Notes under the pieces: model-generated | Database searches by the model: none | Told to the model about the DNA's origin: nothing | What the model saw: the letters and a program-made list of their open reading frames with translations, nothing else | Made by a program: the position numbers and the translations under genes | NCBI GenBank assembly: GCA_022448945.1 | Contig: JAKVCV010000014.1 | Coordinates: 62,001-126,000 of the forward strand | Reading direction: 5' to 3' | Source: Saprospiraceae bacterium | GTDB lineage: Bacteria; Bacteroidota; Bacteroidia; Chitinophagales; Saprospiraceae | Length of the DNA stretch: 64,000 bases | Shown here: positions 26,622 through 40,521 of the stretch, one piece after another | Layout of the letters: every line of letters starts with the position of its first letter | Numbering within the stretch: position 1 is the stretch's first letter

Positions 26622-27611
26622 TCAACCTCCTATTAAAATCATCGAACGATTTTGATTGTGATTAACTGGATTTGCCAACTCTTCAAAACTATTCCAACCA
26701 CCACGTTCAGCATATTTGGAGCTTACGTTTTTAAGTATAATCGATTTTATATCTTCACCATTCCTATAGGGCGTTAAAAGATCTGTTTCTTCTGTCGAAA
26801 ACAAACAATTTTTTATATGCCCATTAGCTGTTAACCTAATACGATTGCAAGTAGAACAAAATGGATTGGTAACGGTACTAATAATACCAAAACTCCCTAA
26901 ATAATTTCTTATTTTATAATTAATAGCAGTGTCATTCGGGGCATCATCAATTTTTATTAAGTTTTTACTACCATAATACTCAGACACCAAATTTAATATC
27001 GTTTTACGGGAAATACCTTTATCCCAATCCCACTTATTACCTCCAAAAGGCATGAATTCGATAAACTGAATAGTTAATGGCAAATCTTTAGTTAAGTCTA
27101 TAAAATCAGTTAATTCTTCCAAATTAATTTCTTTAATTAGTACAGCATTAATTTTAACATTAAAACCTTCACTTAAAAGTAAATATATATTAGAAAGAAC
27201 CTTATCGAAATAATCCCGTTTTGTGACTATAGCAAATTTATCCCTGTCAAGTGTGTCCAAACTAATATTTATATTATTAAGTTTAGCAAGCTTAAAAGTA
27301 TCAATAAATCGATCTGCTATTATACCGTTAGTTGTTAGAGCTAATTCAACAGGCAAACTACTTAATTGATTTATTATATATTTAGCATCTTTACGAACCA
27401 ATGGTTCTCCACCTGTTAAACGAATTTTATTAACTCCAAGCTCTACGAATTGACGAGTAATACCCATTATCTCTTCATAAGTCATTAAGTTGGATTTTGG
27501 TGCCAACTCAATTCCTTCTTCTGGCATGCAATAAAAGCACCTAAGGTTGCAGCGTTCCGTTAACGAAATTCGGAGGTAATTGTGTATTCTATTATACTTA
27601 TCAACTATCAT
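26622..27611 (-). CDS. moaA: GTP 3',8-cyclase (molybdenum cofactor synthesis)
   Basis: Radical-SAM enzyme that starts molybdopterin synthesis from GTP. The SAM cluster is held by Cys21, Cys25 and Cys28 (CNLRCFYC), followed by LTGGEP. The second, substrate-side cluster is held by Cys252, Cys255 and Cys269 (CSTCNRIRLT ... KNCLF), and the protein ends in the catalytic Gly-Gly pair. Last gene of the purine operon, three bases after xdhC. The cofactor is needed by the XdhAB enzyme encoded at the other end of the operon, so its placement links cofactor supply to demand. Other moa genes are not in the window. Confidence 0.97.
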   Translation of the reverse strand: MIVDKYNRIHNYLRISLTERCNLRCFYCMPEEGIELAPKSNLMTYEEIMGITRQFVELGVNKIRLTGGEPLVRKDAKYIINQLSSLPVELALTTNGIIADRFIDTFKLAKLNNINISLDTLDRDKFAIVTKRDYFDKVLSNIYLLLSEGFNVKINAVLIKEINLEELTDFIDLTKDLPLTIQFIEFMPFGGNKWDWDKGISRKTILNLVSEYYGSKNLIKIDDAPNDTAINYKIRNYLGSFGIISTVTNPFCSTCNRIRLTANGHIKNCLFSTEETDLLTPYRNGEDIKSIILKNVSSKYAERGGWNSFEELANPVNHNQNRSMILIGG

Positions 27612-27614
27612 ATA

Positions 27615-28580
27615 TTATTGATTGCGTATTTCTATCATTTGTGCAGCAACACTCACTGCTATTTCTTCAGGACTTTTACATTTAATGGGTATGCCTATAG
27701 GAGTATATACCCTGTCTATTTGACTAAAAGTAAATCCTTTTTCTACAATAACTTTTTTAATTACCTCAGCCTTTTTCATACTTGCCATTAAACCCATATA
27801 CTTTGAAGGTTTATCGATAAGTTGACTCAATATTAATATATCTAAAGCACGAGAAAAACTCATTATTATAATAAAATCTTTATGGGTGCTAGGTACAAAA
27901 GCCGAGACGTTCTTATAGTTAGTAACTATTTTCTTAGAAATATACTTATCATATTCTTCAGTTGATAAGTTCTTTCTATTGTCAATTAATATTACATTAA
28001 AATTAAGTAAAAACAATTGTCTACATAAAGCCAAACCTACATGCCCTGCACCTATAAGATATACTTTTTCCCTAACATCTAATAAAAATCTATATTCCCA
28101 TTCATTCTGATTATTAAATTTGTATTGGTATCCTTTCTCTGGAGTGTTGTCTGTTGTTAAAAAGAATTGATTCTCTGAAGAAAAAACACAGCAATAATCT
28201 TTTTCTGAATTATAATTGTCAATAATTGATTTAATTATTGAAAAATGATCTGAAGCATTCAAAAAATACGTAATTAAGATTTGTTCTCCAGAACATGACA
28301 AGCCAGACCAAGCATGTTTACTAGCTTGATCATGGACAAGTTTCTTGCATGTTACTTCGTTATTCCCTTTTATTAATAATTTCTTACAAGCTTCAACCTG
28401 TATATATTCCATGGCACCTCCTCCAATTGTACCAATCATTGTGTCATCGGATGCTAATGCCATTATGTGTCCTTGTTTTCCAGGACTACTTCCATGACTT
28501 TCAGGCACCATCATCAAAGCAACCTTAATACCGTTATCAAGTTTTTGATAAACAAAATTCCAAAGTATAATAATATCCAT
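27615..28580 (-). CDS. xdhC: XdhC family xanthine dehydrogenase maturation factor
   Basis: XdhC binds molybdenum cofactor, has it sulfurated and inserts it in xanthine dehydrogenase. The N-terminal domain shows MVPESHGSSPGKQGHIMA and IGGGAMEY, and the C-terminal Rossmann domain reads VYLIGAGHVGLALCRQLFLL. A Cys in GLSCSGEQILI matches the conserved GLxCGG position, though the second Gly is Ser here. The gene lies between the aldolase-like gene (10 bases) and moaA (3 bases), consistent with a dedicated role in the purine operon. Confidence 0.94.
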   Translation of the reverse strand: MDIIILWNFVYQKLDNGIKVALMMVPESHGSSPGKQGHIMALASDDTMIGTIGGGAMEYIQVEACKKLLIKGNNEVTCKKLVHDQASKHAWSGLSCSGEQILITYFLNASDHFSIIKSIIDNYNSEKDYCCVFSSENQFFLTTDNTPEKGYQYKFNNQNEWEYRFLLDVREKVYLIGAGHVGLALCRQLFLLNFNVILIDNRKNLSTEEYDKYISKKIVTNYKNVSAFVPSTHKDFIIIMSFSRALDILILSQLIDKPSKYMGLMASMKKAEVIKKVIVEKGFTFSQIDRVYTPIGIPIKCKSPEEIAVSVAAQMIEIRNQ

Positions 28581-28590
28581 AGGATAAAAA

Positions 28591-30021
28591 TTATTTCAAT
28601 CTACGTCCCTGAAGTATTTTAAGAAAAGAACGTGACTGTATTTCTTCTAAAGTTAAACCGGTAGCTAAGGCTTCATCTTCAGATATAGCTCCACTATTTA
28701 ATCCCTTTAAAAAATAATTCAAAAGGCCTTGTCCAGTAGCAGCATCATCAAATATATCTGTAGTTAAGGTGGCTTGAGCTGCCTTACTAACAAAATTAGA
28801 TAAACGACTAGCAGCATCTGAATAGCTTTCTAGAAAAAATGCATATACTGCAGCGTAACGTGCAATAAATTGAGCTGGATGTAAATCCCACCCCTGATAA
28901 AAGCCATTCCATAAAGAGTGCCTGACATGATCATAACCCATTTTCCATGCACGATGCACAACATCCGTATTTTCTTTAAGCTTGTCATAGCTGAGATTTT
29001 CTCCCTTATGCGGTCCTACTGGCATAACATTAGTAGCCCCATCGGATAGCCATATTCCAGTATGAGCTAAAGCAACCTTAGTCATATGGTGTGCAAAATC
29101 ACAAACTGGATGATCCATCGTTTGATATTTTGCAGTAATATTACAAGAAGCTGTATAATCATATGTACCAAAGTGACATGCAACCAAGCGTCCCTTTCCT
29201 GCTTTAATAAAATTCATCAATGGATTTTTACCTTCCTCAGTCATAATTGACTGGGTGGTTTCAACCATCATTTCCATTTTAAGGGTTCCAGAAGGGATAT
29301 GATTAACATTCTCGAGTATTTCAAAAAGTTGAACCAATGCTTCTACCTGAGCGGTAATTTGAACTTTAGGTAGCATAACAATAAAATTTTGAGGCAATTT
29401 ACCTCCTGTTATATTACATAAAGTACTTATAAAAATATCTAATGTTCGAATACCACGTTCTTTTAAGTCCTCACTAAAAGGTTTTATTCTGATTCCAATA
29501 AAGGGTGGCAAAGATCCTATTTCCATACCCTTGGCAACTTCTTCAGCAGCACGAATTGCTGTCTCATCTTCTTCTTCATCGGACCTATTCCCAAATCCAT
29601 CCTCAAAATCAATTCTAAAATCTTCTAAAGCTTCAGTATTAAGCTTATTTACTAATTTATTATATACTGTATATGCTAGCCAATGTGTTTCTTTTTTACG
29701 TTGTTCTTCAGAAAGATTATCTAATCTGTTTTGTAAAGTTTTCACTTCTTCTACATCTTCTGGCAATGATTGCCAACCATCTAATTGAAGTAACCTTCCA
29801 AGTATACAAAAGTTAGGAGCATAGTATGCTAAATTTTTTCTTGCCCCTTCAGCTAATTTATAAGCAATATTTGCATCAAATAGATTAGCACCACCATAAA
29901 CAGTATGGACGGGTTGACGGTCAGGTCTGTCACCATTGTAAACCTTTTGGAATGCAATATTGTGTTTACTTAGATGGTTAGAAATCTTATTTAGTTGATC
30001 TTTGTTTATTGATAAATTCAT
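28591..30021 (-). CDS. CitE/HpcH-like aldolase superfamily protein (DUF6986-like) in the purine operon
   Basis: Function not established. The fold is recognisable from the citrate lyase beta/HpcH signatures, widely spaced: GIRIKPF (the Arg of the substrate site), DFEDGFG at 138-144 (counterpart of the metal-binding DLEDAV), MLPKVQ at 216-221 and EMMVET at 250-255. At 476 residues it is much longer than CitE (about 300), with a helical N-terminal 130 residues and a C-terminal extension. Relatives of this long form are, as far as I recall, associated with ureide or purine catabolism in other phyla. Position between uraH (48 bases) and xdhC (10 bases) implies a step in purine breakdown. Handling of ureidoglycolate or glyoxylate is my inference. 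Confidence 0.75.
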   Translation of the reverse strand: MNLSINKDQLNKISNHLSKHNIAFQKVYNGDRPDRQPVHTVYGGANLFDANIAYKLAEGARKNLAYYAPNFCILGRLLQLDGWQSLPEDVEEVKTLQNRLDNLSEEQRKKETHWLAYTVYNKLVNKLNTEALEDFRIDFEDGFGNRSDEEEDETAIRAAEEVAKGMEIGSLPPFIGIRIKPFSEDLKERGIRTLDIFISTLCNITGGKLPQNFIVMLPKVQITAQVEALVQLFEILENVNHIPSGTLKMEMMVETTQSIMTEEGKNPLMNFIKAGKGRLVACHFGTYDYTASCNITAKYQTMDHPVCDFAHHMTKVALAHTGIWLSDGATNVMPVGPHKGENLSYDKLKENTDVVHRAWKMGYDHVRHSLWNGFYQGWDLHPAQFIARYAAVYAFFLESYSDAASRLSNFVSKAAQATLTTDIFDDAATGQGLLNYFLKGLNSGAISEDEALATGLTLEEIQSRSFLKILQGRRLK

Positions 30022-30069: not shown

Positions 30070-30408
30070 TTAACTACCTCTATATGTTGAGTAACCAAAT
30101 GGATTTAATAATAGAGGAACATGGTAATGCTCTTTATCAAAAGTCTCAAAAATAATTTCTACTTTAGGATAAAAAGTCTGTGTTTTAAGGGATTTAAAAT
30201 AATCTTCAGTCATAAAAACCATTTTGTATATACCAGGCTCCAATAAAGTGTCATTATCTAGCAAATCTGATACCCTTCCATCATTATTCGTAATTCCTGA
30301 GCCAATAATAGTCCAGTTTTCTGAATTACTTTGGTGTAATTCTATTTTTACTCCTTCTGCAGGTTTACCAATACTGGTATCGAGTATATGTGTAGTTATC
30401 TGACTCAT
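30070..30408 (-). CDS. uraH: 5-hydroxyisourate hydrolase (transthyretin-like)
   Basis: Opens 5-hydroxyisourate to 2-oxo-4-hydroxy-4-carboxy-5-ureidoimidazoline. A 112-residue transthyretin fold with the N-terminal active-site His in TTHILDTSIGKPAEGV, the central YKMVF strand, HYHVPLLLNPFGYSTYRGS at the end and the diagnostic C-terminal YRGS. No peptide signal, so cytoplasmic. Its ATG overlaps the stop of uraD (ATGA), which implies translational coupling with the next step's enzyme. Confidence 0.97.
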   Translation of the reverse strand: MSQITTHILDTSIGKPAEGVKIELHQSNSENWTIIGSGITNNDGRVSDLLDNDTLLEPGIYKMVFMTEDYFKSLKTQTFYPKVEIIFETFDKEHYHVPLLLNPFGYSTYRGS

Positions 30409-30908
30409 GATAATAATTTTTGAATTCTAAGTTTAGTAATTTTATGTTGTTCAGCTGCAGCTATAAGCAATTCTTCTTTCCTATTATTTGGTAACCTTTT
30501 GAGTAAGAGATTCAACATTTGTTCAGCTGTTTTACCTGTTGCAAATACAATAAAGATAAATCCGAATTTAATTTCATAATCAGAATTTCCCTTAGCTAAA
30601 GCGTTAATGGTTTCCATTGATGCTTGTTCAACAAGTTGTTGTTCATTGCCCGCCCATTTTTTAGTAGCGTTAAACTTTTTAGCTAATGAGTCTACGTCTC
30701 CAATTTTTGGATGTCCTGAAAAAGCTTGCAAATAATCTTCTTCCTTACATTGAGCCCAAATTTCATCTGCAGCCTGATTTAAAGATTCTATACTATTAAA
30801 TGGTCTTCTAGAAGCTAAATTCTTATACCAATTACTAGAAGCACAACATTGACTAAATTTGTCTTCTAAAGTTTTTATTGAAACATTATTTAGTTCTTCG
30901 AGTTTCAT
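30405..30908 (-). CDS. uraD: OHCU decarboxylase
   Basis: Converts 2-oxo-4-hydroxy-4-carboxy-5-ureidoimidazoline to S-allantoin. All-helical 167-residue protein with the catalytic His66 in FSGHPKIGD, WAGNEQ, and the downstream EIKFGFIFIVFATGKTAEQML. Overlaps uraH by four bases; 27 bases downstream of the allantoicase gene. UraD and UraH work in sequence on unstable products, which fits their coupled translation. Confidence 0.97.
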   Translation of the reverse strand: MKLEELNNVSIKTLEDKFSQCCASSNWYKNLASRRPFNSIESLNQAADEIWAQCKEEDYLQAFSGHPKIGDVDSLAKKFNATKKWAGNEQQLVEQASMETINALAKGNSDYEIKFGFIFIVFATGKTAEQMLNLLLKRLPNNRKEELLIAAAEQHKITKLRIQKLLS

Positions 30909-30935: not shown

Positions 30936-31937
30936 CTATATAATGTTGCCATATAATCGCATTCTACTAATACCACCATCTGGGTATATATTTAATCGAA
31001 CATGTGTAAAAGTTTCATCATTATCAATCAAATCAAAAAAATGTTCATTATGAGCCGATAGTTTTTGTTTAGGTAAAATTTCATTCCAATTTAAAGAATC
31101 GATATTATCTTCAGTAATCATTTCTTCATCAGACAAATTAATTGCATCAATAGAACAAGTGTCAGGATAATTACCTTTAAAATGACAAGTATCAATCAAT
31201 GCTTTATTTAACCTTCCTTCTTTAGCCAATTTAACAACTACCCAATCGCGATTGTTTATCATACGATTTCTTTTTGTCTCCCAGCCATCACCCATGTTTG
31301 CTCCTCTATTAGGCATAATTAAATTATCCATATGGCTAAAAAACATATCATTACACAACACTGATTTAGCCCCTAAGTTAGCAGAAGCTAAATCAACAAT
31401 TTGATTATTGTCATATAAACTCCAATCTACATGAACATGACCATAAACTTTAAAACGTGCTACTCCTCCATCTGGATAAATATGTAATTTGAGGTGAGTA
31501 TACACATAATCTGAAAACATATCAACATAATGCTGAGATCCGGGATTTAATGGCATCTTTTTTACTAAATTGTCCCAGTCATCGTATTTTAAAATTGTGT
31601 CAATGTCAGTATCTAAGGGCAAACAACAGCCTTCCACTGAAGCATACGGAGGATGATTACCTAAAAAGTGGTTAGTATCTATATCAAATCCCCTCAAATT
31701 CCCTGGTGCACCTAATTTAATTATACAAAAATCGTGTCCCTCTGTCCTTTTACGTCTAGATTCCCAACCATCCATCCATTTACCGTTTTCAGTATATTTA
31801 TCTTCAATGAAAATTCCCCTTCCTGGTTTGAGTAAATTATCCATAGAAGCAAAAAAATCATCTGTACAATATATTGCTTTTGCTCCAAAATTTTCGGCTG
31901 CAAGATTCTGTAAATCTATAAAATCCGGTCTTATCAT
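30936..31937 (-). CDS. alc: Allantoicase
   Basis: Hydrolyses allantoate to ureidoglycolate and urea. Two allantoicase repeats are visible: the first has LAAENFGAKAIYCTDDFF, MDGWESRRKR and FDIDTNHFLGNHPPYASVEG; the second has LASANLGAKSVLCNDMFF, GDGWETKRNR and IDTCHFKGNYPDTCSIDA. Each ends with a R-x-Y/H-G beta element (RFKVYGHV, RMRLYGN). 333 residues, normal. The choice of allantoicase rather than allantoate amidohydrolase means one urea per purine is released here and a ureidoglycolate-processing enzyme is still needed. Confidence 0.97.
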   Translation of the reverse strand: MIRPDFIDLQNLAAENFGAKAIYCTDDFFASMDNLLKPGRGIFIEDKYTENGKWMDGWESRRKRTEGHDFCIIKLGAPGNLRGFDIDTNHFLGNHPPYASVEGCCLPLDTDIDTILKYDDWDNLVKKMPLNPGSQHYVDMFSDYVYTHLKLHIYPDGGVARFKVYGHVHVDWSLYDNNQIVDLASANLGAKSVLCNDMFFSHMDNLIMPNRGANMGDGWETKRNRMINNRDWVVVKLAKEGRLNKALIDTCHFKGNYPDTCSIDAINLSDEEMITEDNIDSLNWNEILPKQKLSAHNEHFFDLIDNDETFTHVRLNIYPDGGISRMRLYGNII

Positions 31938-32041: not shown

Positions 32042-33388
32042 TTATTCACCAATTATCAATGTACCTTCTTGTTTTTTTATGAGTTCTTTGCCATTCCAAA
32101 CTAAGTTTCCTTTAACATAAGTATATTTTACCCTTCCTTTTAAATGTAATTGAGAATATGGAGATATTTTATGTCTGGCTTGAATTATTTCAGGTACAAC
32201 TTTAAACGTTTCATTAGGGTCCCATATAACTAAATCTGCATCATAGCCTACTTTAATTTTTCCCTTGTTCAACTCTTTTCCAATAAATTTAGCAGGAGAT
32301 TCACACAAGATTTCTTTTAATCTTTGGAGTGTTAAACCATATTTAACACCTTTCGTCCATAAGGCAGATAATGTGAATTGAATTCCTGAAATTCCACCCC
32401 AAGCATCTTTTAAATTACCACTATCTAATTCCTTAATATTTGGTGGTGCAGGTGAATGATCTGAACCAATAAAATCTATAGTTCCATTAATTAAAGATTC
32501 CCAAAGCAAATCGTTATTCTTACTACCTCTGATTGGTGGGGCACATTTAAATCTAGTGTCTCCATTGGGTATATTTTCAGCATTAAAGAAAAGATAGTGT
32601 GGGCAAGTTTCAACAGTAATAGGTACGCCCCTTTTTTTAGCAGCAAGAATTGAATCTAAGCAATCAGCAGAAGATATATGTACAATGTGAGTTGGATGAT
32701 TGAATTCCTCAGCCATTTTTAACATCAATTCAATAGCATCATTTTCCCATTTCTTTGGCCTTGATTTTAAATATGCCATATAGTTAGATGGATATTTATC
32801 TAAATCTGAACTATTAGTTGCAGAACCAATTTCGCAATGCGCTAAAATAGGTAAGTTGCTACCTTTTAGCGCATTATATGCAGCAATTAATGTATCTTCA
32901 TCTGAATCAGGAAATTCATCAATACCACTGTGTATAAGAAAAGCTTTAAAACCTAAAACTCCAGCCTGGGCTAATGGGATTAATTGAGAGATATTTGCAG
33001 GAATAATCCCACCCCAAAAACCGCAATGCATATGAGCCTTTTTATCAGCTACTGCAATTTTCTTTTTAAATTCTTTTACATTAATTGTAACTGGGGTGGA
33101 ATTTAAAGGCATATCCACTAATGTAGTAACACCTCCTGCAACTGCAGCAGTAGTTCCTGTGTCAAATCCTTCCCAATCCGTTCTCCCTGGTTCATTTATA
33201 TGAACATGAGGATCTATTATACCAGGCATCAATACATAATCCCCATAATCGTGAAAAATATATTCTGGTTTTTGTGATTTTCCTATTTCAATATGTACAA
33301 TTTGGCCATTTTCGATATAAATTGTATATGGACCTGCATCATTAGGTAACAAAACTTTAGAACTATAAATTGCTATTTTTGTATTCAT
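32042..33388 (-). CDS. allB: Allantoinase
   Basis: Amidohydrolase that opens allantoin to allantoate. Binuclear metal site residues: His61 and His63 in DPHVHINEPGRTDWEGF, the carbamylated Lys in GFKAFLIHSG, ILAHCE, HIVHISSADC and GSDHSPAPP. The allantoinase-type GRTDWEGFDTGTTAAAAGG-like stretch distinguishes it from dihydroorotase and hydantoinase. 448 residues, normal. 21 bases downstream of puuD. Confidence 0.96.
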   Translation of the reverse strand: MNTKIAIYSSKVLLPNDAGPYTIYIENGQIVHIEIGKSQKPEYIFHDYGDYVLMPGIIDPHVHINEPGRTDWEGFDTGTTAAVAGGVTTLVDMPLNSTPVTINVKEFKKKIAVADKKAHMHCGFWGGIIPANISQLIPLAQAGVLGFKAFLIHSGIDEFPDSDEDTLIAAYNALKGSNLPILAHCEIGSATNSSDLDKYPSNYMAYLKSRPKKWENDAIELMLKMAEEFNHPTHIVHISSADCLDSILAAKKRGVPITVETCPHYLFFNAENIPNGDTRFKCAPPIRGSKNNDLLWESLINGTIDFIGSDHSPAPPNIKELDSGNLKDAWGGISGIQFTLSALWTKGVKYGLTLQRLKEILCESPAKFIGKELNKGKIKVGYDADLVIWDPNETFKVVPEIIQARHKISPYSQLHLKGRVKYTYVKGNLVWNGKELIKKQEGTLIIGE

Positions 33389-33409: not shown

Positions 33410-34825
33410 TCAATCTAGCTTTGCTCCTTGCATAATCCAAGTTTCAATTAAATCACGCTCTTTCTGAGTCATTCTGGTTTTATTACCCTGAGGCATTGTT
33501 TTAGTAATAATTGCCCTGTTCATAATTTGATCTTTATATTGTACGATCTGTTCTGGAGTATCGAACATAACACCACCTTGAGCAACTATAAAAACATCAT
33601 CTGTAGGTATTTTAGAATGACATGATTGGCAGCGTTTTTGAACAATAGGAAATATAGTTGAAAAACTGACTTTTTCAGCATTAATTAAATCTTCTCTAGA
33701 TAAAGGTGCAGTTATATAAATAGCACTAATTATCAAAGAAATACTAACTGGAATAATCCAATAGTTTGTTTCACCACGTTCCCACTGATTATGAAAATGT
33801 TTGATACCGGCTCCAGCTAATGACAAAAGCGCTAAAATTATGATATTATGTTCATTTCCAAAAGTACTTGGAAAATGATTACTTATCATTATAAACAATA
33901 CAGGAAGAGTGAAATAGTTATTATGATATGAACGCCAACCCGCTTTTTGACCAAGAGATACATCTGGTTCTCTACCTTCTTTTGCAGCAAAAACCATTTC
34001 TTTTTGTGCAGGAATAATGCAAAAGAAAACATTGCCTGCCATCATAGTGCCCATAATTGCACCTAAATGAATATAGGCTGCTCTGGGATTAAAAAATATC
34101 GATAAAACATATGCGACAATTGCTAAATAAATAAACATAACTAGAAAAAACAATGGCCTTCTCTCTACAGCCAACATTTTTGGATTTGATAGCAATTCAT
34201 AAAAAGCATATGAAATTAAAATTGAAGAAATGCCAATCATTACTCCAAGAACAGGAGTCAAATGCGTTATTTCTGGATTAATAAGAAAAGATTCTGCATT
34301 AAAATAATAAACAATTATCAATAAACAAGTGCCTGTAAGCCAAGTAAAATAGGCTTCGTATTTAAACCAATGTAAATGTTTTGGCATTTTATTTGGTGCT
34401 CCTTTATATTTTTCCAGAAAATAGAAACCACCACCATGAATCGCCCAAAGATTTCCTTGTAGTTCATCTCTTACATTCGATCTATTTAAGGAGTTTTCAA
34501 GAAAGACAAAATAAAATGAAGCACCAATCCAGGCAATACCGAAAATAATATGTAGCCACCTTATAATTAAATCCATCCACTCCTGTAAATGTGCTTGCCA
34601 TGGGGTACCTTGAACTTTTATATATATAAAATAGGAAACAGTAAAAAAGAAAGCTAAAAAGCGAAACCATTTACCCAAAAAAGACATATTCAAAGCAAAA
34701 TCTTTATCTTTTTCGGTTTGGCGTATAGGGTCTTGAGCATATTGTTTAACTAAACGCTTACAGATTATTGAACCAAAAACACATAGAATGACAATGATCC
34801 CTATCATCGTTTCCACTATTCCCAT
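33410..34825 (-). CDS. puuD: Membrane-bound urate hydroxylase with C-terminal cytochrome c domain
   Basis: PuuD-type urate oxidase, an integral membrane enzyme that replaces soluble uricase and passes electrons from urate to the respiratory chain instead of making hydrogen peroxide. The first 380 residues hold about eight to nine membrane helices, with the family segments RWLHIIFGIAWIGASFYFVF and GGGFYFLEKYKGAP. The C-terminal domain has a haem-c site Cys399-Gln-Ser-Cys402-His403 and the probable ligand Met444 in TKTMPQGN. Its neighbours supply urate (XdhAB) and use its product (UraH/UraD), so the assignment is strong. Confidence 0.95.
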   Translation of the reverse strand: MGIVETMIGIIVILCVFGSIICKRLVKQYAQDPIRQTEKDKDFALNMSFLGKWFRFLAFFFTVSYFIYIKVQGTPWQAHLQEWMDLIIRWLHIIFGIAWIGASFYFVFLENSLNRSNVRDELQGNLWAIHGGGFYFLEKYKGAPNKMPKHLHWFKYEAYFTWLTGTCLLIIVYYFNAESFLINPEITHLTPVLGVMIGISSILISYAFYELLSNPKMLAVERRPLFFLVMFIYLAIVAYVLSIFFNPRAAYIHLGAIMGTMMAGNVFFCIIPAQKEMVFAAKEGREPDVSLGQKAGWRSYHNNYFTLPVLFIMISNHFPSTFGNEHNIIILALLSLAGAGIKHFHNQWERGETNYWIIPVSISLIISAIYITAPLSREDLINAEKVSFSTIFPIVQKRCQSCHSKIPTDDVFIVAQGGVMFDTPEQIVQYKDQIMNRAIITKTMPQGNKTRMTQKERDLIETWIMQGAKLD

Positions 34826-34870: not shown

Positions 34871-37186
34871 TTATTGTTTATGTGTTTTTTCAATTCTATT
34901 GTTAATTATCACGTTACCATTTTGATTCTTATTATCATCATACAAAGCTAATAATACCCTTTCATGCGTCATAGGAGCATGAAATAAACCAATAGCATTA
35001 GGATTAAAAGCTTTAATAGCATCAGTTATTGCAAAATGTGAACCTATACCGTACATGAGTGGTGGTTCACCCACTGCTTTCGACTTTAAAATCGCCAAAT
35101 TAGGATTTTCAGTTTCCAGAAATTTAATCAATATTTCTTTAGGAGCAGAAAAAACATCAGGTACCTTATAAGTCGAGAGTGCAGAAGATAATAAAAGACC
35201 TTCATCATTATAACTCAATTCTTCCATTGTTAGCCATCCAATACCCTGAACCAATCCTCCTTCAACCTGGCCTTTATCAATTATAGGGTTCATAGACTTG
35301 CCAAAATCATGAACAATACTAACTTTATCAATAACATAAGTCCCTCTAATACAATCTAAAGTGATTTCAGTTATAGCAGTACCATATACATGATATGCAA
35401 AAGGATGCCCCTTCTCAGTAGTTTTATTGAATTTGATTCTTGGGGTTGCATAATGTCCTTTTTCAGATAATTGAATCCTTGCAAGAAAGGCATTTGAAAT
35501 GAGTTTCTCCCAATTCAATTCTGTTTTTTTATTCTCTATATAAACCCATTCATCCTCAAATTTAATATCGTTTAAATCTTTAACATTATAATGCTTCTTT
35601 ATGAAAGATAACAACCTGTCTTTTATACTATTACAAGCAATTTGGAGGGCTTTGCCATTTAGATCTGCTCCCGCACTTGCAGCTGTTGGTGATGTATTTG
35701 CTACTCTTGTTGTATTTGTAGTTTCTATTTTAATTTTATCTGGAGATAATGAAAAGGTTTTAGAAACTACCTGTAGCATTTTCGTATTAACTCCTTGTCC
35801 CATTTCAACTGCTCCAGTGCTTGCACCTACACTTCCATCCTGATACACATGTACCAATGCTCTTGCATGATTCATAGGGGTATTGGTAAAAGAAATACCA
35901 AAACAAATAGGCATAAAAGAAATACCTTTTTTAAGGTATTTATTATTTATATTAAATTTTTTAACTCGTTTACGTATCGCTTCAATTTCAAAATCCTTTT
36001 CTGCTTGATTCCATGTGCTTTGAGCTTCACATCCTTCAATAATTTGTCCATATGAAAATTCTTGGCCTTCCTGTAAGAGATTACTTTTTTGTATTATAGC
36101 CCTATCAATTCCTAATGCTTCAGAAGCTTTGGTTATGGCTGCTTCAATTACGAACATACCTTGAGGACCTCCAAATCCTCTAAAAGCAGTATTAGGTGGT
36201 AAATTTGTACGGCAACTAGTTGCAGAAATTTTAATATTAGGAACAAAATATGTATTGGTTCCATGAAAAAGAGTACGCTCTAAAACAGCTGGAGATAAAT
36301 CTGCTGATGCTCCTGCATTTTGATAATAATCAGCTTGATAAGCAATAATTTTATAATTTTCATCCAAACCAATTTTAAAATCTGATGAATATGGATGGCG
36401 TTTACCAGTCATTCGCATATCCTCTTCTCTACTGATAACTAATTTGACAGGTTTATTGCTTATGAACGCTCCAATTGAAGCGAGCACAGCAAATGGTGTT
36501 GCTTGATCCTCTTTGCCACCAAATCCTCCACCTAACCTCCTTACGTCAACCTCAACCTTGTGCATAGCAAGTCCTAAAACACGGGCTACACCTCGTTGGA
36601 CTTGAGTTGGTCCTTGAGTTGAAGAAACAACACGAATTGAACCATTTTCTACTGGAAATGCATAAGCACCCTGCCCTTCTATATACAAATGCTCTTGTCC
36701 GTTCGTATAAGCTTCACCTTCAAAAATATGAACACATTGATTCCAAGCTGTATCTATACTCCCCAATCGAAAGGTTCTCACTGGTCCAATAATTTCACCT
36801 TTTGAGGCGGCTTCTCTTGGGTCAACTATAACAGGCAATTCTTCATATTCAAATAATATTTTGTCAAGAGCTTCTCTCCCTTGTTTTTCAGTATTCGCCA
36901 AAATCATAGCCACTGGTTGTCCTCTAAAGTGAACTTCTGCTTCTGCTAATGCTGGTTCATCCGGGAAAATTCCTCCAATTTGATTTTCTCCAGGAATATC
37001 TTTATATGTAATAATATATTTTACCCCTGGCATTTTTTTTGCCTGAGAAATGTCAAGATTTATGATTTTAGCATGAGCTATAGGTGAATCAAATATTACA
37101 CCATATAAAGTGCCGCCTAATATTGGAAGATCATCAACATAAATTGATTCACCTCTTGTATGTGTATAAGAATCAATGTTTTTCAT
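34871..37186 (-). CDS. xdhB: Xanthine dehydrogenase molybdopterin-binding subunit
   Basis: Large subunit that hydroxylates hypoxanthine and xanthine. Begins HTRGESIYVDDLP as in the family; contains the molybdopterin-contacting GGGFGGKE, AFRGFGGPQGMF, GAVEMGQGVNTK and the catalytic Glu707 in KAVGEPPLMYG. 771 residues, typical of two-gene bacterial XDH. Four bases after xdhA, so tightly coupled. No iron-sulfur region of its own. Confidence 0.97.
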   Translation of the reverse strand: MKNIDSYTHTRGESIYVDDLPILGGTLYGVIFDSPIAHAKIINLDISQAKKMPGVKYIITYKDIPGENQIGGIFPDEPALAEAEVHFRGQPVAMILANTEKQGREALDKILFEYEELPVIVDPREAASKGEIIGPVRTFRLGSIDTAWNQCVHIFEGEAYTNGQEHLYIEGQGAYAFPVENGSIRVVSSTQGPTQVQRGVARVLGLAMHKVEVDVRRLGGGFGGKEDQATPFAVLASIGAFISNKPVKLVISREEDMRMTGKRHPYSSDFKIGLDENYKIIAYQADYYQNAGASADLSPAVLERTLFHGTNTYFVPNIKISATSCRTNLPPNTAFRGFGGPQGMFVIEAAITKASEALGIDRAIIQKSNLLQEGQEFSYGQIIEGCEAQSTWNQAEKDFEIEAIRKRVKKFNINNKYLKKGISFMPICFGISFTNTPMNHARALVHVYQDGSVGASTGAVEMGQGVNTKMLQVVSKTFSLSPDKIKIETTNTTRVANTSPTAASAGADLNGKALQIACNSIKDRLLSFIKKHYNVKDLNDIKFEDEWVYIENKKTELNWEKLISNAFLARIQLSEKGHYATPRIKFNKTTEKGHPFAYHVYGTAITEITLDCIRGTYVIDKVSIVHDFGKSMNPIIDKGQVEGGLVQGIGWLTMEELSYNDEGLLLSSALSTYKVPDVFSAPKEILIKFLETENPNLAILKSKAVGEPPLMYGIGSHFAITDAIKAFNPNAIGLFHAPMTHERVLLALYDDNKNQNGNVIINNRIEKTHKQ

Positions 37187-37190
37187 TATT

Positions 37191-38591
37191 TCAACAATTA
37201 TATAATTCTGGAAAGAACTTCATATAATGCGCAGTTAATAACTGTCTAAATAAAAGTCGTTTATATCTAACAGAACCTCGAACATCTCCAATCGGTGCAA
37301 CTTCAGATTGAGCAATCTCTATAGATTTATCTAAAATTGATTTATTGGGTAACTTCCCAATAAGAAATTTAGATGTTTCAAGTAAATATTTTGGTACAGG
37401 GGCTAGGCCACCAGCAGAAATATGTGCCATAGAAATTTTACATTGCTCATCAAAATGTAAACATATAGCAGAATTAACAGATGCAATATCTAGATATGTA
37501 CGTTTTGAAACTTTTTCAAAATTAAATAGGTACGAAGATGTAGGTAAAAGATAATTGATCTCTTGAACAAATTCATTTTCTTTTTTGTCCAATGTTTTAT
37601 AACCCTGAAAAAATTGATTCAATGGAATTTCGCGCAAAGCTCCATTATCATTTAAAACAATATTACTATTTAATGCTAAAAAGAAAATTGCTAAATCTCC
37701 AATTGGTGAAGCATTTACCAAATTTCCTGCTATTGTAGCCATATTCCTGATTTGGAGTGAAGAAATTAAATTAAAAAACTGATCTGTCTGCGGACATAAT
37801 TCTTTAATTACAGTAGATTGTTTTAATTCTTCAGTAGTAACAGAAGCTCCAATATGGCACCTACCCTTATCTTTCCATATTCCTTTTAAATCAGAATGGT
37901 GTAAAGTATGTATTATTTGTTTATCGAACATTTCCTCAGGTCTCTGTACATATAAATCTGTTCCACCGCCTACAAATACACTTTCTGTATTGAGTATATT
38001 TGTTTTTTGAGATTCATTTTTAAATTCATCAAGCCTTTCTTTTATAGTATTGAAATAATCAGGTAAGAATTTTTTAGAGACTAACCATTCAATAGGCCGA
38101 ACATCATCTTTGTCTACTAAACTATCGACTATAGTACCTATTGCACGTTCTATAGATTTGTATCCTGTACATCTACAAATATTCCCAGCAATAGATAATG
38201 TCCCCTGTTCCTGATTTTTTGCTTTATCTGAAAGGGCAAAACCACAAAGTGAAACTACAAAACCAGGAGTACAAAAACCACATTGAGTGCCACCGTGATC
38301 CGTTATTGCTTTTTGTGGAACATTTAAACCTTTGATATTCAAACCTTCAACAGATACTATATGTTTGTCTTTTGCATTTCCAAGTGGCATTAAACATGAA
38401 GTGACCGATTCATAATTAAGTCCATTATCATCTAGCGAGCCAACTAGTATAGTGCATGCTCCACAATCTCCTTCTCTACAACCCAATTTTGTGCCCGTAA
38501 GTGATTGTTTATATCTTATGAAATCTGCCAATACCATTCCTTTTGGCAAATTTGTTTCAACTAATTCATCATTTAAAATAAAACGAGTCAT
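37191..38591 (-). CDS. xdhA: Xanthine dehydrogenase FeS/FAD subunit
   Basis: Small subunit that carries electrons from the molybdenum site to FAD. The plant-type 2Fe-2S site uses Cys38, Cys43, Cys46 (GCREGDCGACT) and Cys66. The second 2Fe-2S site uses Cys104, Cys107 (CGFC), Cys139 and Cys141 (CRC). The FAD domain contains FVGGGTDLYV and NMATIAGNLVNASPIGD. First gene of the ten-gene operon and therefore next to its main promoter. 466 residues, normal for the bacterial FeS-FAD fusion subunit. Confidence 0.97.
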   Translation of the reverse strand: MTRFILNDELVETNLPKGMVLADFIRYKQSLTGTKLGCREGDCGACTILVGSLDDNGLNYESVTSCLMPLGNAKDKHIVSVEGLNIKGLNVPQKAITDHGGTQCGFCTPGFVVSLCGFALSDKAKNQEQGTLSIAGNICRCTGYKSIERAIGTIVDSLVDKDDVRPIEWLVSKKFLPDYFNTIKERLDEFKNESQKTNILNTESVFVGGGTDLYVQRPEEMFDKQIIHTLHHSDLKGIWKDKGRCHIGASVTTEELKQSTVIKELCPQTDQFFNLISSLQIRNMATIAGNLVNASPIGDLAIFFLALNSNIVLNDNGALREIPLNQFFQGYKTLDKKENEFVQEINYLLPTSSYLFNFEKVSKRTYLDIASVNSAICLHFDEQCKISMAHISAGGLAPVPKYLLETSKFLIGKLPNKSILDKSIEIAQSEVAPIGDVRGSVRYKRLLFRQLLTAHYMKFFPELYNC

Positions 38592-38859: not shown

Positions 38860-39561
38860 ATGAAAAAGCAAAACATTAACAGAGAATACAACTTCCCAGA
38901 TTCTGATTTATACGCACAATGCAAAGAACGTATACAATATATTCTACGAGATCTAAAGGAGTTTGAAAGTTATGCATATCATCAAAAGAAAATTGATGAA
39001 TTCTTAAATTTATGTAAACAATTTTCAGATCTTCCTGATGACGATGAACTGATAGGGAATCAAATGGAGGCTACAGATAAAAAGAATATTGCAAAAGAGA
39101 AATTAAAAACTGCAATTCGTTCTGTAATGACTAGAGTTTCTAACAGGTACCATGTTCGTTCTGGTCATTACAGGAAATTTGGTACTGTTAAAATGAATGA
39201 CATGAGTGATCCAAAACTATTATTATGCGGTAGAAGAGTAGTCAGGGTGTCAAATAAGTTATTGGATTTTCTTTCAGAAACAGGTTTAAAACAAATACAC
39301 ATTGATACAGTACAAAAATCTGCTGCTGCATTTGAAAACGCTATTCATATTCAACAGGATAAAGTATCAGATAGAGATATTTCTGTAGAAAAACGTATTG
39401 ATTTAGGAAATAGACTATATAGAGAGCTTGTACACGTTTGCAATATTGGCAAAGATATTTGGGCTGAAAAAAACAAAGCTAAATATGAAAATTATACAAT
39501 TTACGAAAGTAATAATGACCAAAAAATTGCACGTAAGAAAAAGGAATCTGAAAAAAGATAA
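38860..39561 (+). CDS. Hypothetical helical protein
   Basis: Not recognised. 233 residues, mostly charged alpha helix, no signal peptide or membrane segment. Residues about 80-140 are basic (VMTRVSNRYHVRSGHYRKFG) and the last 15 residues are Lys/Glu-rich (RKKKESEKR), so nucleic-acid or partner binding is possible but not shown. Transcribed away from the purine operon; its promoter shares the 268-base divergent gap with xdhA. The reading frame is long, free of competing frames and begins at a good ATG, so it is a real gene. Confidence 0.72.
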   Translation: MKKQNINREYNFPDSDLYAQCKERIQYILRDLKEFESYAYHQKKIDEFLNLCKQFSDLPDDDELIGNQMEATDKKNIAKEKLKTAIRSVMTRVSNRYHVRSGHYRKFGTVKMNDMSDPKLLLCGRRVVRVSNKLLDFLSETGLKQIHIDTVQKSAAAFENAIHIQQDKVSDRDISVEKRIDLGNRLYRELVHVCNIGKDIWAEKNKAKYENYTIYESNNDQKIARKKKESEKR

Positions 39562-39714
39562 TAACATTTAAATACAAATTCTTTGTTTAATTATATTTGT
39601 AATTATTAGATTTTAAATCTGCCAATTAAAAAAATAATCAACTATTAAAATTTGTTCATTTAGTTTTTGTTTTAAATTAAAATATGGAATTATTAAAAAT
39701 CAAAAATATATCAC

Positions 39715-40521
39715 TTGGATTTTAAATATTATGAAATAGCAAAAATTAAAACAGCCGATGAAGATCTCGACATAGAACTTCACAGACATTTGTTTTATGA
39801 GTTCTTTTTTTTCTATGGAGGGAGTGGAAAACATATAATTGATTTTCAGGAATATGACCTTTCGCTTCCCTGTATTCAAATAGTGAGCCCACATCAATTA
39901 CATCAGGTTATACAATCATCGGATTCTCAAGGATATGTTATAAAGGTAAAACCTATTTTAATTTCTTCTTACCCTCGTATCAATAATTTCCTGAACAACA
40001 TACAATACAATCAACATTTTAATCCAGGTGTTTTAATCAAAGAAAATGAGCAGAGACTACTTAAAGAAAACTGTCTTTTTCTTAATTCACACAATAACAA
40101 TAACGAAGATTCCATTTTTGCATTGTTATCTTTTATTAATTTGTATATCTCTATATTAAAGAAAAATCAGAAAGAAAAAGATACCTCAGATAACAATATA
40201 AATAATGTTATTTTTACAGAATTCATGCAACTTGTTGAAAATTACTATTTGGTAGAAAAAAGCGCTGAATTCTATATGAATAAAATGCATGTTTCGCTAA
40301 ACAAGTTGAATAATATAGTAAAAGAAAGAACTGGTATGTCTGCAAAAAAATTTTTAATTCAACGCGTTTTACTTGAAGCAAAACGTTTGGTAGTACATAG
40401 TAATAAATCTGTGAAAGAAATAGCCTATGATCTTGAATTTTTGGAACCTGCTCACTTTACCAATTATTTTAAAAAACATATTGGCACCTCTCCTACTAAC
40501 TTCAAACTTATGTTCCAATAG
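39715..40521 (+). CDS. AraC family transcriptional regulator (uncertain start)
   Basis: N-terminal cupin-like sensing domain with ELHRHLFYEFFFFYGGSGKHIIDF, C-terminal pair of helix-turn-helices at about 165-265 (MNKMHVSLNKLNNIVKERTGMSAKKFL, then VKEIAYDLEFLEPAHFTNYFKKHIGTSPTNFK). The only in-frame start is a TTG at 39715; an in-frame stop at 39694 blocks any further extension. An ATG at 39684 in another frame encodes MELLKIKNISLGF and then stops at 39723. Joined by skipping one base it would give a natural AraC N-terminus. So a non-ATG start, a one-base error or a frameshift is possible. Targets unknown; it may control nearby genes. Confidence 0.85.
   Translation: MDFKYYEIAKIKTADEDLDIELHRHLFYEFFFFYGGSGKHIIDFQEYDLSLPCIQIVSPHQLHQVIQSSDSQGYVIKVKPILISSYPRINNFLNNIQYNQHFNPGVLIKENEQRLLKENCLFLNSHNNNNEDSIFALLSFINLYISILKKNQKEKDTSDNNINNVIFTEFMQLVENYYLVEKSAEFYMNKMHVSLNKLNNIVKERTGMSAKKFLIQRVLLEAKRLVVHSNKSVKEIAYDLEFLEPAHFTNYFKKHIGTSPTNFKLMFQ

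Follow-up and report, generated by a model that had tools for sequence, protein, structure and literature searches.

Our results indicate that the protein encoded at positions 28591..30021 of the window (the whole 64,000-nucleotide stretch of Saprospiraceae DNA that was analysed) is most likely a Mg2+-dependent ureidoglycolate lyase (EC 4.3.2.3), which has the fold of CitE, malyl-CoA lyase (MCL) and malate synthase and is unrelated to AllA/DAL3. The protein belongs to DUF6986 (PF22484), a Pfam family that carries no assigned function. Furthermore, we consider it probable that DUF6986 is an independently evolved C-N lyase of the CitE / malate synthase superfamily, which would have dropped CoA, would cleave an aza-analogue of malyl-CoA, and would complete purine breakdown in Bacteroidota and many other lineages. 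Ureidoglycolate lyase is an already known activity class, and it is the family that is uncharacterised, judging from its Pfam name and from searches of the open PMC library, where the name DUF6986 is absent and where, among the papers listed, no title or abstract opening points to such an assignment. The assignment is drawn from the operon, the fold, the invariant active-site positions, and the replacement of AllA.

The gene (476 residues, ATG start) lies in a purine operon of ten genes, all on the minus strand with intergenic distances of -4 to 104 bp, in the order xdhA-xdhB-urate oxidase-allB-allantoicase-uraD-uraH-DUF6986-xdhC-moaA. The run begins with the small subunit (xdhA, 37191..38591; PF00941/PF01799, and TIGR02963 at 322 bits, below the cut-off of 467) and the molybdopterin subunit (xdhB, 34871..37186; PF02738/PF20256, and TIGR02965 at 801 bits, slightly below the cut-off of 849.5) of xanthine dehydrogenase. 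These are followed by a urate oxidase with a PF06181 (Urate oxidase N-terminal) domain (33410..34825; 373 bits), allantoinase AllB (32042..33388; TIGR03178, 509 bits), allantoicase, which yields ureidoglycolate and urea (30936..31937; TIGR02961, 414 bits), OHCU decarboxylase UraD (30405..30908; TIGR03180, 168.5 bits), and hydroxyisourate hydrolase UraH (30070..30408; TIGR02962, 145 bits), the last four all above the cut-offs of their models. Downstream of the DUF6986 gene are an XdhC-type xanthine dehydrogenase maturation protein (27615..28580; PF13478, PF02625) and, as the last gene of the run, moaA of molybdenum cofactor synthesis (26622..27611; TIGR02666, 322 bits, above cut-off). From this gene content, the chemistry of the operon stops at ureidoglycolate. 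The original prediction had described a 476-residue protein between uraH and xdhC, for which it gave no strand, as a candidate for the last step of the pathway, and had stated that nothing known for that step was present. Its coordinates are exact, the motifs it quoted are all in place (DFEDGFG from D138, MLPKVQ with P218 and K219, and EMMVET at E250-T255), and the absence it noted holds in the window's own genome for AllA and AllD, as genome-wide profile searches found no match to AllA (PF04115) or to the AllD model TIGR03175. The same genome contains a single DUF6986 copy, urease alpha was not found genome-wide above 180 bits, and no family for tartronate semialdehyde was matched among the ten operon genes in Pfam or NCBIfam. 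Divergent from the operon, on the plus strand at 38860-40521, are genes for a 233-residue protein with no Pfam match and an AraC-type regulator (268 residues), which are candidates for operon control. The terminal moaA ties molybdenum cofactor synthesis to xanthine dehydrogenase.

The match to PF22484 (585.5 bits against a cut-off of 27, E 6.8e-176, model positions 2-408 of 408) excludes that the open reading frame is due to chance. No NCBIfam model was matched at E up to 0.001, and a Pfam scan at E up to 10 listed no match to AllA/DAL3 (PF04115). A weak match to the TIM-barrel domain of malate synthase (PF01274), at 22.8 bits, is below the cut-off of 26.4. HpcH_HpaI (PF03328) was matched at 16.0 bits by the window protein and at 24.9 bits by the DUF6986 protein of Tsukamurella, both below the cut-off of 25, so that the window protein does not count as a member. 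Among solved structures, a single-sequence search gave malate synthase G as the top match with an E value of 0.46, and a profile search matched a short part of MCL with an E value of 1.4e-4. Three of five plasmid-borne DUF6986 copies are annotated as 'aldolase/citrate lyase family protein'. In viral contigs, seven stretches fitted a pattern and none of them encodes a relative.

The AlphaFold2 model of the window protein, made with 57 sequences (pLDDT 90.4, pTM 0.87), has the TIM-barrel fold of the CitE-like / malyl-CoA lyase superfamily. As aligned with VIA-align, the nearest fold to this model is R. sphaeroides MCL (4l9y, with Mg, glyoxylate, and propionyl-CoA), with Z 27.4 and rmsd 2.4 over 291 aligned residues; the list is headed by malyl-CoA lyases, human CLYBL, haloarchaeal malate synthase, and citrate-lyase-like (CitE) entries, and Foldseek returned largely the same families. 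With hhalign, a profile of 14 DUF6986 proteins matched one of E. coli CitE and seven plasmid-borne CoA ester lyases at a probability of 97.8% (E 9.5e-13), and the alignment places D138/E140/D141, R178, E254, and D288 on CitE D42/E44/D45, R76, E139, and D166, which correspond to D42, E44, D45, R76, E141, and D168 of MCL; the last two pairs were also aligned by HMMER. Across 70 distinct DUF6986 sequences, none of these six positions varies (70 of 70 for each). According to the MCL study (PMC3832036), E141 and D168 are the Mg ligands, E44 and D45 hold Mg waters, R76 is the substrate arginine, and D42 orients R76. The C-terminal D425, which lies beyond the end of the hhalign alignment, is also invariant in 70 of 70 sequences, and is a likely candidate for the counterpart of the MCL lid aspartate D299.

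The CitE residues had been predicted to be partly kept. At the metal and catalytic positions that can be aligned this understates the case, as all of them are kept, and it is further out that positions differ. N78 and K229 of CitE, invariant in 8 of 8 CitE-like sequences, are K180 and G377 in 70 of 70 DUF6986 sequences; in the hhalign alignment, P382 of the window protein keeps the IHP-motif Pro of CitE; and Q36, Y42, K180, and Q376 are invariant residues specific to the DUF6986 family. Thus the metal end of the site is kept while some positions that are invariant in CoA-using relatives are changed, a pattern that is compatible with CoA binding as well as with its loss. Passages of PMC3112382 and PMC6689899 describe the roles of CoA residues in words, with few residue numbers.

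The strongest evidence for the assignment is that DUF6986 and AllA replace each other, near-exclusively, among sampled genomes with allantoicase. In a sample of 296 genomes from the phylum of the window's organism, full-length DUF6986 (>300 bits) was found in 13 and allantoicase in 8; left out of this count were three genomes with short partial DUF6986 matches (29.3, 23.5, and 20.5 bits) and, in G034, an additional partial match. All 8 allantoicase genomes, which represent five genera, have DUF6986 (hypergeometric 1e-12, kinship ignored), and in 8 of 8 the two genes are no more than 2.5 kb apart. AllA (PF04115) is present in 6 of the 296 genomes, in 0 of the 13 with DUF6986 and so in 0 of the 8 with allantoicase, and none of the 6 AllA genomes has DUF6986. 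AllC and AllE together provide another route to ureidoglycolate, and three further genomes of the 13 contain uraH, uraD, allB, and AllC plus AllE instead of allantoicase, again without AllA. A mirror sample of 299 genomes was taken from the phylum of Ketobacter, where AllA and DUF6986 were sought in the 18 genomes with allantoicase. AllA was found in 18 of these 18, and full-length DUF6986 in 1, the Ketobacter centre genome, which had been chosen for having DUF6986; in the 17 others there was none, partial matches below 30 bits (G352, G498, G582, G591) being left out. In the own-phylum sample, the eight allantoicase genomes and the three AllC plus AllE genomes with DUF6986 have a ureidoglycolate-making enzyme and no AllA, a combination to which other genomes offer exceptions.

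A scan with one genome per species gave at least 584 relatives, of which the best 80 loci were analysed; because the best were taken, this set leans to close relatives. Bacteroidota supply most of them, and one or a few loci each come from Balneolota, Chlorobiota, Ignavibacteriota, Acidobacteriota, Spirochaetota, Cyanobacteriota/Melainabacteria, Myxococcota, Bdellovibrionota, SAR324, Pseudomonadota, and others. Among these best 80, 71 loci contain at least one ureide gene (UraH, UraD, allantoicase, AllB, AllC, or AllE). Allantoicase is present in 43, AllE in 19, and AllC in 18; allantoicase and AllE occur together in 0 of 80, and AllA and AllD are each absent from all 80. The original prediction had proposed that homologues found mostly outside purine clusters, together with a ureidoglycolate lyase elsewhere in the genome, would speak against it, and had suggested a survey for co-occurrence with allantoicase and absence of AllA. 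The distribution runs the other way on these points, and among the reactions it offered favours ureidoglycolate lyase as the predicted activity.

For 56 of the best 80 loci the protein entered the alignment (A2), and a quick tree was made from 52 DUF6986 proteins, in which the AllC/AllE label was set by AllE alone. On this tree the label of allantoicase or AllE changes five times by parsimony, with at least three changes forced by well-supported branches; the Actinomycetota rows and L050-L052 sit on long branches in the quick trees. The upstream enzyme has thus been swapped repeatedly with DUF6986 retained, as expected if DUF6986 acts on the common product. A genome-wide PF04115 search of 49 genomes from the best 80 loci found no match in 45 and a match above cut-off in 4, namely Ketobacter (182 bits), an acidobacterium (L136, 58.7 bits), and two SAR324 members (L135 and L134, 29.5 and 28.2 bits). 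L136, L135, and L134 have ureide genes near DUF6986 despite this match. The L134 locus, which contains AllE and DUF6986, also has a gene for an oxamate carbamoyltransferase subunit of the AllG type (PF06545, 289 bits), and ureidoglycolate may thus meet two fates there. AllD scored above its cut-off in 0 of 61 DUF6986 genomes, with sub-threshold relatives in 27.

The gene often adjoins xdhC, which is found in 37 of the best 80 loci, as it would if the protein were a non-catalytic or accessory component of the purine operon, for instance in xanthine dehydrogenase maturation. We regard this as highly improbable, given the invariance of all six aligned metal and catalytic positions in 70 of 70 sequences and the retention of DUF6986 in loci without a match to xdh or xdhC (e.g. 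L064, L077, L081, and L083). A few other neighbours were recorded among the best 80 of the at least 584 relatives. moaA is found in 7 of these loci, with moeA and moaC genes in others. A dCMP/cytidine deaminase family (PF00383) protein of ~158 residues, possibly a guanine deaminase, lies beside the clusters in 14 (e.g. L067:13567-14043). In four acidobacterial loci (L122, L124, L129, L132) a ~560-residue open reading frame lies downstream of DUF6986; the two that were scanned (L129, L132) match Peptidase_M49 weakly (57-59 bits), and in L132 a Uma2-family protein lies in between.

Urease gives mildly informative support. It was found above 180 bits in 12 of 61 DUF6986 genomes and not in 49, matches below 180 bits being left out (19 of 61 genomes pass the cut-off), and it is more frequent in AllC plus AllE genomes (6 of 13) than in the others (6 of 48; Fisher p 0.014, kinship ignored). 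In the AllC/AllE route, both earlier nitrogens are released as ammonia, and therefore urea is expected in these genomes only from a ureidoglycolate lyase. A urease gene lies within the fetched locus in Niastella (L088) and ~14 kb from DUF6986 in G166.

Ureidoglycolate decays spontaneously to glyoxylate and urea, as is on record in PMC3793230, so a lyase might be dispensable to a cluster, and the need for the enzyme is a matter of rate. This would leave room for a malate-synthase- or malyl-CoA-lyase-like enzyme acting on the final glyoxylate of the pathway. Such an enzyme would come from the same superfamily, in keeping with the weak PF01274 match and the retained P382, and malate synthase above 100 bits is missing from 40 of 62 DUF6986 genomes. 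However, 22 of the 62 do have one above 100 bits, and the window's own genome has one normal malate synthase (380 bits) on a different contig from the operon. In this count, matches below 100 bits, mostly partial or overlapping DUF6986, were left out (the family cut-off itself is passed in 28 of 62), and G333 and G055, with the same contig and coordinates, were both counted. DUF6986 therefore neither simply replaces nor depends on malate synthase, whose co-occurrence is not discriminating here. Moreover, a glyoxylate-consuming enzyme would be expected beside AllA too, yet in the samples DUF6986 and AllA stand in for one another, and the residues at the CitE N78 and K229 positions are uniformly changed. 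We therefore consider a glyoxylate enzyme unlikely, and prefer the ureidoglycolate lyase.

Some DUF6986 copies lie outside purine clusters. Two of the 13 DUF6986 genomes of the own-phylum sample (G240 and G156) carry divergent copies (43% and 36% identity), and the stretches fetched around them contain no purine marker; the neighbours there include TerC in G240 (L051) and a peptidase S66 gene in G156 (L052). Nine of the best 80 loci (L062, L065, L097, L117, L122, L124, L129, L131, and L139) have no ureide marker; seven have no marker at all, three of them being shorter than 12.5 kb, and in two, from contigs of 11 and 3.3 kb, XdhC is the sole marker. In Ketobacter, contig 41 carries allantoicase beside AllA, and DUF6986 lies on contig 11 (L139) beside an acyl-CoA dehydrogenase gene. 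These copies imply that the family either is not of one function or is not always clustered, and it may hold a second function. The part of the family outside purine clusters and the weak HpcH_HpaI matches would also fit a class II aldolase of the HpcH/HpaI kind, working on glyoxylate plus pyruvate or a related keto acid (e.g. 4-hydroxy-2-oxoglutarate). We find this quite improbable, as both HpcH_HpaI scores are below cut-off, the CitE-type D-x-E-D signature is invariant, and the replacement of AllA would be left unexplained.

More distant DUF6986 copies, with 29-36% identity, are found in five plasmid or large-replicon records of Actinomycetota. In Nocardia farcinica, tblastn matches place the gene between xdh-like and allantoicase-like genes, in the vicinity of uraD, uraH, and a PuuE-type gene. 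In Tsukamurella, an AllE-type gene directly follows DUF6986 in a purine cluster; this gene (L057:13260-14081) is annotated as 'bifunctional allantoicase/(S)-ureidoglycine aminohydrolase' yet aligns with AllE proteins (32-34% identity), and its label may merit a check. The Paenarthrobacter gene lies between an NCS1 nucleobase transporter gene and a gene labelled polysaccharide deacetylase, which we take to be a PuuE-type allantoinase. In Gordonia, DUF6986 is immediately before the urease genes, and in Nonomuraea none of the purine markers is near it. Arthrobacter sp. Rue61a grows on allantoin, and candidate genes for the conversion of allantoate to glyoxylate were not obvious to the authors of its genome report (PMC3534580).

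Drawing on the fold, the invariant positions, and the genomic setting, we infer metal use, substrate, and mechanism as follows. The enzyme would convert ureidoglycolate to glyoxylate and urea by an aza-retro-aldol step. E254 and D288 would bind Mg2+, E140 and D141 would hold two waters on it, and the metal would chelate the 2-hydroxyl and carboxylate of ureidoglycolate, like the 2-hydroxy-acid end of malyl-CoA in MCL. R178, oriented by D138, would polarise or deprotonate the hydroxyl. The C-N bond would then be cleaved in retro-aldol fashion, with the ureido NH-C(=O) in place of CH2-C(=O)-SCoA, and the leaving group, an isourea anion as counterpart of the enolate, would take up a proton from a lid acid, probably D425, before departing as urea. 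By analogy, ureidoglycolate, HO-CH(COO-)-NH-CO-NH2, may be viewed as the aza-analogue of the malyl end, HO-CH(COO-)-CH2-CO-SCoA, whose C-N bond could be broken like the C-C bond. The stereochemistry poses a real difficulty for this mechanism. (S)-Ureidoglycolate is the enantiomer for allantoicase and AllE, and because N outranks the carboxylate in priority, it would correspond in space to (R)-malyl, not (S)-malyl, so that glyoxylate would have to present its other face to the leaving group. It is conceivable that Q36, Y42, K180, and Q376 serve this altered glyoxylate face.

The UAH and AllD enzymes, which also act on ureidoglycolate, belong to unrelated families and give other products (ammonia and oxalurate, respectively). 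AllA/DAL3 resembles DUF6986 in the proposed reaction and in its genomic place near allantoicase, and differs in being another family, with a 162-position model. DUF6986 shares with MCL (4l9y) and E. coli CitE the fold and the six metal and catalytic positions, and in the model its C-terminal helical part lies where these enzymes bear the lid (PMC3832036). Unlike them, it has allantoicase or AllC/AllE as partner genes, would cleave a C-N bond without CoA, and, relative to E. coli CitE, has ~70 extra residues between the first strand and D-x-E-D (first strands matched by eye), with fewer extra residues in the Actinomycetota members. Malate synthase (PF01274) is of the same superfamily, with a weak similarity along the PK...E...D segment, whereas the N- and C-terminal Pfam domains shown by E. 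coli AceB are absent from the DUF6986 protein.

In summary, we propose that this operon ends its ureide chemistry with a DUF6986 lyase. Many bacteria contain the pathway up to ureidoglycolate with no AllA to complete it. To our knowledge, a C-N lyase within the CitE / malate synthase superfamily would be new. Enzyme annotation has been more confused than most at the final step of the ureide pathway (PMC3793230), and the proposed role of DUF6986, if true, would fill such gaps and replace the vague label of an aldolase or citrate lyase family protein. It would also add C-N cleavage to a superfamily known for C-C bond chemistry and thioester hydrolysis (PMC3832036), and would complete purine breakdown in Bacteroidota and in the many further lineages that carry such clusters, among them probably Actinomycetota.
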